From Collinsella tanakaei (lineage in GTDB: Bacteria > Actinomycetota > Coriobacteriia > Coriobacteriales > Coriobacteriaceae), in contig NZ_JACJMB010000003.1 of assembly GCF_016902615.1 (NCBI RefSeq), positions 62,001-126,000 on the forward strand: DNA of 64,000 nucleotides. Reading direction: 5' to 3'. Positions 619 through 36,989 of the stretch are shown piece by piece. Below the pieces are notes generated by a model. That model was not told the DNA's origin, ran no database searches, and was given only the letters and a program-made list of their open reading frames with translations. How positions within the stretch are numbered: the first letter of the stretch is position 1; each line of letters begins with the position of its first letter. Both the position numbers and the translations under genes were made by a program.

Positions 619-869
619 GATGCACCTCCCGGTTCCTGTTGTCGGGATTATACCCGGGATTCCGCGTGCGCCCCATCCTCGTGCGTCCCCATCCACTCCA
701 AGCCAAGCGACTGACACCAGGACTTTGAACCCGGACGATAACCCCTGATGCGCTACACACGGACGAACTGTAGAGCGTCAGTCTCACGACACCGCCCCAA
801 ACGCCACCAACCGTCAGCGCAGGCGTTCTGACAGAAGGTATTCGCAAGAACAACCGCATCCGAGAACGT

Positions 870-1028
870 GAAGGTGCCACTTTCGGTACTTTTTCAGAAC
901 CCTCCTGAGTAGACTTAGAAAACGGCCAAAACGATATAACCTTCTACCTGCAGGTTTGTTCTTTCAGCCTCAGCCAGATACGCCGTCTTCACCGAACGGC
1001 TCGAAAAAGTACTGAACGTGGCACCTTC
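870..1028. repeat. Long inverted-repeat element, copy A (159 bp)
   Basis: The arms are 870-895 and 1003-1028, complementary at 24 of 26 positions. The second copy lies at 36681-36848. The copies share the arm core CACTTTC-GTACTTTTT, the internal block AAACGGCCAAAACGATA (at ~930 here), a TACCTGC block, and TACGC..TCTTCACC before the right arm. The outermost stem bases differ between copies, yet pairing is kept within each. It lies in the gap between the small membrane protein and the GGGtGRT operon terminator. It could be a MITE-like mobile element or a structured RNA gene. No convincing ORF lies inside. Confidence 0.75.
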
Positions 1029-1107
1029 TCGTTTTGGCGAGGTTGATCTCGCTGCGTCGGCATGGAAATTCGTCGTCCGAGGCCCTTCCTTGGGTCCGCC
1101 GGCCATG

Positions 1108-4901: not shown

Positions 4902-4978
4902 TGGTGGACCGTCAGGGATTCGAACCCTGGACCTTGGGATTAAGAGTCCCCTGCTCTAGCCAGCTGAGCTAACGGTCC
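4902..4978 (-). tRNA. tRNA-Lys (CTT), copy 1
   Basis: 77 nt including an encoded CCA. The acceptor stem GGACCGT pairs with ACGGTCC, the anticodon loop CTCTTAA gives anticodon CTT (codon AAG), and the T-loop is TTCGAAT. It is identical to the copy at 5010-5086. It is the last gene of a His-Lys-Lys operon. Confidence 0.95.
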
Positions 4979-5009
4979 ATATATGACCTCGTCGAGAGGA
5001 AAGCATGGA

Positions 5010-5086
5010 TGGTGGACCGTCAGGGATTCGAACCCTGGACCTTGGGATTAAGAGTCCCCTGCTCTAGCCAGCTGAGCTAACGGTCC
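5010..5086 (-). tRNA. tRNA-Lys (CTT), copy 2
   Basis: Identical in sequence to the 4902-4978 copy, including the encoded CCA. It lies 31 bases upstream of that copy in the same transcript. The tandem duplication fits a GC-rich genome that uses AAG heavily. Confidence 0.95.
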
Positions 5087-5113
5087 ATGACATGCTGTGC
5101 GCAAGAGAGAGGA

Positions 5114-5191
5114 TGGGGTGGGTAAAGGGACTCGAACCCTCGACCTACGGGACCACAACCCGTCGCTCTAGCCAACTGAGCTACACCCACC
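5114..5191 (-). tRNA. tRNA-His (GTG)
   Basis: 78 nt counting the extra 5' G (position -1, at 5191) that pairs with C73, a hallmark of tRNA-His, and an encoded CCA. Anticodon loop TTGTGGT gives GTG. It is first in the His-Lys-Lys operon. Confidence 0.95.
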
Positions 5192-5710: not shown

Positions 5711-7204
5711 ATGGGAAAACGATTCCTTGCCGCCCTGGCGTGTATCGCCGCGATACTCGCCATGATCCCGTCGTTCGCCGTGGCGAACGATACCGCGGAG
5801 AAGACGTATCTCGCGCTGGGTGACAGCATCTCGACCGGATACGGGCTCGACGGCGAGGGCGCCGTCTCGTTCGTCAACATCTTCTCCGGCGAGAACGGTC
5901 TCACCGCAGACCCCACGTACGCGCGCGACGGCATGACCTCCTCCGAGCTCTGCGCCCTCATCGCCGATGAGGACGCGGCCGCGCGCGTGGCGGCGGCCGA
6001 CGTCATCACCGTCACCGTCGGGAGCAACGACATGCTCGGCGCGCTGTACGGCTATGTCGCGAGCGCCTGGAGCGCCGCCAACCCCGACGCGCCCCTGACC
6101 GGCGACGAGATCCAGCAGATCCTCGCCGGCGACCGCGACCTGCAGACCAAGCTCGCCCTCATCGAGTTCGCGAGCGGGCAGCTTGCGACCTTCGCCGCCT
6201 CGGACGAGGCGAGCTCGGCGCTCGCGGAGCTCACCGCCAACCTGACGGCCGTCGTCACGGGCATCCGCACCCTCAACCCCGACGTGCGGCTGCTCGTCGC
6301 CAACCTGTACAACCCCTACGGCCATCTCGCGCAGAGCATGGCGGGAAGCGCCTGGGCGGAGACGGGCCTTGCCATCTCGGCCGGCTTCGACGCCGCCACG
6401 TCGGCCGTGAACGCCGTCATCGAGGCGGGCGCCGCCACGGGCACCTATGCGGTGGCCGACCTCCACACCGCGATCGCCGACGCCTCCGAGAACCCCTGCA
6501 ACGCGGGCATCGAGATCGTCTCGTACGACCCGTCCGCCATCGACATCGACCTCGACTTCCACCCCAACGCCTACGGCCACGGCCTCATCGCCGATGAGTT
6601 CACCCGCGCGCTGCACCCCTCCTACGCCTATGCCGACGTCGAGCCCGGCGCCTGGTACGTCGACGCCATCGACTGGGCGATCGCGGCAGGCGTGCTCGGC
6701 GGGTACGGCGACGCCGGCGTGATGGGCCCCACAGACCCGCTCACCCGCGCCCAATTCGCCGAGATGCTCTGGCGCATCGCGCAGAAGCCCGAGGCGGACA
6801 GCTCCGTGCTCGAGGGCTTCGCCGACGTCGACCTCGACGCCTGGTATGTCGACTCCCTCTCCTGGGCGATCTCGATGGGCCTTCTCGGCGGCTACACCGA
6901 CGGCTCCGGCCTCATGGCGCCCGACGCCGCGCTGACCCGCGAGCAGCTCGCGGTCGTGCTCGAGCGCCTCGCCGCCTCGAGCGGCCAGGACACCTCCGCG
7001 CGCGCCGACCTGAGCGCGTTCCCCGATGCCGACACCGTCTCCACGTGGGCCGTCGACGCCGTGTCCTGGGCGGTCGCGACCGGCGTCGTCCAGGGCGTCG
7101 AGACGCCCGACGGCACCCGCGTGCTCGCGCCGCTCAACACGACCCGTCGTGCGGAAGCGGCCGCGGTGCTCATGCGCATCATGACCGTCACCGACGTCGA
7201 GTAG
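5711..7204 (+). CDS. Secreted SGNH/GDSL-family esterase with three SLH domains
   Basis: 497 aa from ATG 5711 (GAGAGGAGA before it). A signal peptide is clear: MGKRF, a hydrophobic stretch to ~residue 22, and an AVA-type cleavage site. The SGNH hydrolase blocks are present: GDSIS with nucleophile Ser39, VGSND with the block III Asn, and DFHP with Asp282 and His284 completing the triad. From ~residue 305 to the end are three S-layer homology repeats (each with WY/AVDAIDWA and GG motifs, ~60 residues apart), which bind secondary cell-wall polymers and would anchor the enzyme to the cell surface. Substrate is unknown; an acyl or acetyl ester is likely. No operon partner. Confidence 0.88.
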   Translation: MGKRFLAALACIAAILAMIPSFAVANDTAEKTYLALGDSISTGYGLDGEGAVSFVNIFSGENGLTADPTYARDGMTSSELCALIADEDAAARVAAADVITVTVGSNDMLGALYGYVASAWSAANPDAPLTGDEIQQILAGDRDLQTKLALIEFASGQLATFAASDEASSALAELTANLTAVVTGIRTLNPDVRLLVANLYNPYGHLAQSMAGSAWAETGLAISAGFDAATSAVNAVIEAGAATGTYAVADLHTAIADASENPCNAGIEIVSYDPSAIDIDLDFHPNAYGHGLIADEFTRALHPSYAYADVEPGAWYVDAIDWAIAAGVLGGYGDAGVMGPTDPLTRAQFAEMLWRIAQKPEADSSVLEGFADVDLDAWYVDSLSWAISMGLLGGYTDGSGLMAPDAALTREQLAVVLERLAASSGQDTSARADLSAFPDADTVSTWAVDAVSWAVATGVVQGVETPDGTRVLAPLNTTRRAEAAAVLMRIMTVTDVE

Positions 7205-36622: not shown

Positions 36623-36680
36623 ATCGCGACGGAGCAACGGCCCTCGATGTTGATCGGGGGCGCATAATGCGCCCTCGAAA

Positions 36681-36848
36681 ACGAGGAGGGCCCACTTTCA
36701 GTACTTTTTTGGAGCCGTCGTGGGAAGAGACTGCAAACGGCCAAAACGATACAGCAATTTACCTGCGGTTTTCTTGGTGGCGTTCCAGCCCGGTACGCGC
36801 TCTTCACCAGACCCCTCGAAAAAAGTACTGAAAGTGGGCCCTCCTCGT
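36681..36848. repeat. Long inverted-repeat element, copy B (168 bp)
   Basis: Arms 36681-36710 and 36819-36848 are perfect 30-bp inverted repeats. Inside are the blocks shared with copy A (870-1028): AAACGGCCAAAACGATA at ~36735-36751, TTTACCTGC, and TACGC..TCTTCACC. It occupies most of the 367-bp gap between the DUF6440 gene and the convergent aldo/keto reductase. No convincing ORF. Confidence 0.85.
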
Positions 36849-36989
36849 TGCGAGAAGCCCCAGCTGAACGCATCTGCGTACGCAACGCCGCCCGCCACCG
36901 AGCGCCTCGGGCGCAAACATGCTCGATAACGTCCCGATCGATGCATTCCGCGCCCGGGCCCGCCGTGACGGGCCCGGGCGCAGCGGCGT

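Follow-up and report, generated by a model that had tools for sequence, protein, structure and literature searches.

Short palindromic elements with a conserved centre in Collinsella: a genus-wide family seen from two copies in a C. tanakaei genome

The window (the whole 64,000-nucleotide stretch of Collinsella tanakaei DNA analysed here) contains two long palindromes, which we call A and B, and the question they raise is whether such paired arms mark a hairpin under selection, the matched ends of a mobile element or an incidental duplication, all of which had been put forward in an earlier note. We read the elements as DNA-level, non-autonomous mobile elements, and as neither structured RNAs nor a two-copy duplication.

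The two elements and their relatives

The features of A and B are collected in Table 1. The full extents are 865-1033 for A and 36680-36849 for B, the arms reaching slightly past the limits first drawn for them. A and B match at 73% (E 4.6e-22), and the window has two exact occurrences of the arm word AAAAGTACTGAAAGTRGG, where shuffles give an expectation of 0. The terminal inverted repeats and common internal blocks described in the earlier note are real, with the TACCTGC block being the important one. Its account of the pairing also holds: the arms of B are complementary at every position, the mismatches in A (three over ∼30 pairs) are consistent with the near-perfect match counted there (24 of 26), and the outermost stems of the two elements differ in sequence yet pair. 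Elsewhere in the window, at 4905-5190 on the minus strand, three tRNA genes stand in a row, the first two of which score identically.

Table 1. Features of elements A and B in the window, and loci of the central motif outside complete elements
Feature	Position or locus	Strand	Basis or remark
Element A, left arm AACGTGAAGGTGCCACTTTCGGTACTTTTT	865..894	+	sequence reading
Element A, right arm	1004..1033	-	inverted left arm with three mismatches
Element A, inner inverted repeat, left GAGTAGAC	907..914	+	sequence; half-element profile
Element A, inner inverted repeat, right GTCTTCAC	985..992	-	sequence; half-element profile
Element A, central motif TCTACCTGCAGGTTT	943..957	+	dyad ∼1 bp off midpoint between arms
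Element B, left arm AACGAGGAGGGCCCACTTTCAGTACTTTTTT	36680..36710	+	sequence reading
Element B, right arm	36819..36849	-	perfect inverted left arm, 31/31
Element B, inner inverted repeat, left GGAAGAGAC	36723..36731	+	sequence; half-element profile
Element B, inner inverted repeat, right CTCTTCACC	36800..36808	-	sequence; half-element profile
Element B, central motif TTTACCTGCGGTTTT	36758..36772	+	dyad at most 0.5 bp off midpoint between arms
Core + TATAAT before DUF772 gene	G000:C8:11006-11027; G018:C3:227669 and 230306; G023:C21:14801		L303-L306
Arm-less central motif	L113, L115, L117-L119, L122, L204, L213, L227; L207, L223, L233; L098, L120, L155		

The count of two copies is correct for the window and too low for the genome: the 2.45-Mb assembly (92 contigs, 99.96% complete) holds ∼21 copies, all of them intergenic, short and non-coding. 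Further copies thus exist both here and in related genomes, and the incidental two-copy duplication, which the earlier note had kept in reserve should none be found, can be set aside. No arms flanking anything longer, as an autonomous copy would have, were seen in this genome. The central motif TCTACCTGCGGTTTT, searched for with up to three mismatches, is present in 44 of 45 Collinsella genomes at 1 to 23 occurrences per genome where present; reversed-pattern controls gave zero or one. It is also matched in C. aerofaciens, C. massiliensis, C. tanakaei and other Coriobacteriia records, and scattered matches in unrelated bacteria are what chance predicts for a pattern of such length. No phage or plasmid DNA similar to the elements was found; the arm words are absent from the viral contigs searched, and the core occurs in only three viral contigs.

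Most of the central motifs sit within similar palindromes of 120-170 bp, the arms of which are specific to a family. Examples from other arm families are CCACGAAACCGGCCCATCTACTACGTTT, CAAAACTATGCCGGATTACGGGGCT, CAAAACTATGCCGGTTTACTACGATGAAT, CTAAGTGAGTAGACTTTTT, GGAAGTATGCGGCAAAATTC and GCAAATGCGCGGATAAA, and the arms of the window species are absent from 24 genomes of the same genus. Between the arms and the centre, most families have an inner inverted repeat pair that looks related from one family to another (GACCATAC, GACCACGC and GAGCACAC, compared with GAGTAGAC in the window's family). Five copies from the window species (L078, L080, L089, L093 and L096, in genome G000) have a different centre, TTTTCCCAGTTGA, and are one or two helical turns shorter. 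No description of a Collinsella repeat family or of the central site was found in the open-access literature searched. We read the repeats as a REPIN/BIME/MITE-like palindromic family, of a kind known from other bacteria, the family itself being apparently undescribed.

Fixed geometry around the centre

The length of the elements is conserved far more strictly than their interiors. Of the 107 distinct interiors compared across six arm families, 97 match the modal length to the base pair and the rest are 1 bp off, many of the compared copies being orthologous, so that these length counts are not independent events. By family, the arm-to-arm distance is 102 bp in 33 of 36 interiors, 96 bp in 25 of 27 and 104 bp in 23 of 26; in the smaller families it is 85 bp (7/8), again 85 bp (5/5) and 87 bp (4/5). 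The arm-pair search accepted gaps of 60 to 160 bp, and therefore did not impose a fixed spacing. Mean interior identity in the same six families is only 46-73%. In one family, the 11 arm pairs found in two complete genomes all have a start-to-start spacing of exactly 117 bp. Interiors of the window's family can hardly be aligned beyond the core (36% identity) and yet fall into length classes of 89-90, 99-101 and 109-111, that is, in steps of ∼10 bp; the best period is 10.3-10.4 bp (P = 0.035 over five independent length classes).

The position of the core is similarly exact. Its dyad is precisely central in 16 of 16 copies from three families and lies within 1 bp of the midpoint in 13 of 13 copies of the window's family. 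In families with a doubled core, a second copy of the motif, inverted and often degraded, mirrors the first, and the dyad is displaced from the midpoint by exactly 5.5 bp in all 81 copies. From these sequence comparisons we read the fixed length and centred dyad as probably reflecting a constraint on a protein-DNA complex.

Turnover, genomic position and pairing

Empty sites were examined at two loci, both in the C. aerofaciens group and neither in the window species. At the first, a 264-bp block that bears an element in genome G041 is missing in G009 and G012, which keep just a terminator-like hairpin there, and G004 and G019 have two elements at the same place. At the second, two elements of G041 are missing in G046, where a different and unrelated palindrome is found instead (L283 near 5800-5890; arms like AGTTGCGGTGAAATACGGACTG). 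No sharp target-site duplication was seen at the empty sites of these two loci. The 5-bp word CCTCG/CGAGG is found at the ends of copies in the window's own genome, direct in some and inverted in others. In the C. aerofaciens group, another repeated module, GATCCcc-GGGACGGAGGAAAACGGATCATTTTGG, is frequently found between or next to palindromes (L269:700-1030; L198, L216, L230). The ∼21 intergenic copies, the genus-wide family and the empty sites at two loci support in kind the suggestion of MITE-like mobile-element ends, for which a matching transposase was not found; this is the better half of the earlier guess.

Presence and absence of this kind, together with arm families that are specific to a species, points to turnover, and this is an argument against the elements primarily serving the host. 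An architectural or gene-end element similar to BIME/RIB, to which a nucleoid protein or gyrase would bind behind genes and whose mobility would be old or incidental, is in our view possible but unlikely. What speaks for it is genomic position. Genes were called with a codon model for which Pfam-confirmed genes served as the anchor, and on this basis 20 of the genome's own copies could be scored: ten lie between convergent genes, eight in tandem gaps and two between divergent genes, and all eight of the tandem-gap copies are nearer to the 3' end of the upstream gene. This bias towards 3' ends is tempered by the convergent/divergent contrast with window gaps of at least 100 bp, which reaches only P = 0.058. 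Several copies are also found at the same loci in related species, and the arm-less central motif lies upstream of several conserved genes and in their orientation, in positions that are orthologous among several species (Table 1).

The core is likewise found directly upstream of the TATAAT-like -10 box of a DUF772 transposase gene in three species (genomes G000, G018 and G023; Table 1); the DUF772 transposase near one copy we take to be IS1182-like. The pairing of core and TATAAT is not general, and we rejected the core as a general promoter. A common word resembling CTGTATCAAAAGGTCCCTAA lies ∼100-113 bp from the DUF772 cores and may be the end of the insertion sequence. Taken together, the motifs at DUF772 genes and the arm-less motifs upstream of conserved genes suggest, without showing, that the central motif is a candidate binding site of a conserved host protein.

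If the elements were structured RNAs, or hairpins at the 3' ends of mRNAs, folding of the transcript would keep the arms complementary. Folding of both strands is indeed much stronger than in shuffled sequence (z about -10.7), as is expected of any long inverted repeat, and joint changes of the two arms do occur in other arm families. At the first of the two loci above, the arms of G020 have inner halves unlike those in G041, G004 and G019, on the left and the right at once; replacement by another copy, template switching and selection for pairing could each produce such a paired change. The tests of the arms themselves point elsewhere. Mismatches between arms on the core strand comprise 119 G.T and 117 A.C, without a wobble bias, which argues for an element acting at the DNA level rather than as RNA. 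In a right-arm shuffle of the window's family (n = 20), outer-arm pairing was 201 against 186.8 expected, a value reached by 163 of 5000 shuffles, and inner-arm pairing was 282 against 281.1 expected; covariation of the arms is thus weak and near chance, and the outer stem is unpaired in about eight of the 20 copies. The difference between the outer stems of A and B, which the earlier note took to argue for selection on a hairpin or for matched mobile-element ends, samples a pool of end variants and does not on its own amount to compensatory evolution. An RNA hairpin also fits the fixed geometry poorly, because a loop that is largely unpaired needs no fixed length. No convincing match to the elements was found in Rfam, and B lies outside both of the separate terminator-like hairpins near it. 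With arm covariation near chance, no wobble bias and no Rfam match, selection on a hairpin or structured RNA, the other half of the earlier guess, is improbable.

An inverton, in which a recombinase would flip the segment between the arms and so switch a promoter, is very doubtful: the inverted repeats do have phased spacing and the core is oppositely oriented in G041 and G014 at one locus, but most orthologous copies keep one orientation, about half of the genome's own copies are flanked by converging genes, a setting in which switching a promoter would serve little purpose, and the flipped locus also has changed inner arm halves, so that replacement would explain it too.

Partner enzymes, known systems and a proposed complex

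Candidates for an enzyme that moves the elements were sought among transposases. A parent insertion sequence would show as arms paired over a long range; none was found in the window's own genome, nor in two complete genomes searched for one arm family. The IS1182-like (DUF772) transposase was rejected as a partner, as, under the E limit applied, only three of 45 genomes have a close match to the protein. Of the 45 Collinsella genomes, 39 carry Y1_Tnp (RAYT-type) genes, and the elements could conceivably be true REPINs for which a resident RAYT supplies the transposase. However, none of 20 sampled Y1_Tnp loci (a subset of all) has the arms or core of the element, and genome G052 has 18 copies of the motif and no Y1_Tnp match. 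Some Collinsella Y1_Tnp genes (L261, L263 and L265) adjoin different inverted repeats of their own, which are possibly true REPINs.

REPINs, described in Pseudomonas fluorescens and others, have inverted conserved ends at a spacing of 71 or 110 bp with variable spacers (PMC3116915). The Collinsella elements resemble them in having two inverted conserved ends at fixed spacing, a variable spacer that is constrained in length, many extragenic copies, apparent mobility and the ability to form one long hairpin. They differ in that the part conserved across species is the centre and not the ends, in that the window's family has no evident compensatory changes, and in that the arms are not REP stem-loops: taken singly, the arms of six of the seven families show no clear folding advantage over shuffles, and the fold of the seventh is reached by 21 of 300 shuffles, compared with two of 300 for a published REP used as a control. 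The GTAG tag is inconsistent as well (GTAG/CTAC is present in three of the seven arm families, and its place is not constant), and the sampled RAYT genes are not flanked by the arms. Membership among REPINs proper is not supported, and we give their mobilization by a resident RAYT very little credence.

Two other systems are close to the Collinsella family. BIME-1/RIB elements of Escherichia coli consist of inverted REPs around an IHF-binding sequence (PMC2817692, citing Boccard and Prentki 1993). The likeness lies in inverted ends around a central site, perhaps bound by an architectural protein, and, as a tendency in the Collinsella copies, in location at the 3' ends of transcription units; the Collinsella elements differ in that their arms are unrelated to REP and vary by family, in having a conserved dyad with a putative binder where BIME-1 has an IHF site, and in centring and length that are exact to ∼1 bp. 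Correia-type MITEs can also carry an IHF site (review PMC10969869). Like these, the Collinsella elements are short (∼100-200 bp), non-coding and multicopy, with terminal inverted repeats, and presence or absence between relatives was found at the two C. aerofaciens-group loci; the searches above returned neither a parent insertion sequence that shares their ends nor a clear target-site duplication, and, unlike in MITEs, their conserved part is the centre. The family works most like REPINs, BIME-1 and Correia-type MITEs, and departs from REPINs in the REP stem-loops and the RAYT neighbour.

We put the probability at roughly 0.6 that A and B are two of ∼21 short, non-coding palindromic copies belonging to a branch of a Collinsella-wide family, acting as double-stranded DNA and moved in trans. 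In the mechanism that we propose, the arms would be end sites which, with the inner inverted sites and the central dyad TCTACCTGCGGTTTT, are kept at fixed and helically stepped distances. Proteins bound at the centre and arms would come together as one symmetric complex; this complex would be a synapse, through which a trans-acting transposase or recombinase would move the element, and a conserved host protein would bend the DNA at the central site in an IHF-like role. Such a complex would explain the conserved centre, the arms that differ by family and the rarity of copies that break the phasing. Set against this explanation are the searches above, which returned no mobilizing enzyme, autonomous copy or clean target-site duplication; the empty sites, which come from only two loci, both outside the window species; the orthology of many copies, which makes the length counts non-independent, and a phasing P of 0.035 over five classes; and the joint change of both arms at some loci, which could stem from selection on pairing.

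More tentatively, and with the odds against it, the elements may represent a class of miniature mobile elements whose defining part is the centre and not the ends: a conserved central site would organize a symmetric nucleoprotein complex of fixed geometry, the arms would be modules swapped jointly on both sides, and the mover would be an enzyme that is neither a RAYT nor a matching insertion sequence. Collinsella is a common genus of the human gut. The fixed length, nearly free interior and centred dyad predict one protein that binds the centre and arm-binding proteins on the same face of the DNA, a prediction that makes the spread of non-autonomous palindromes directly testable.
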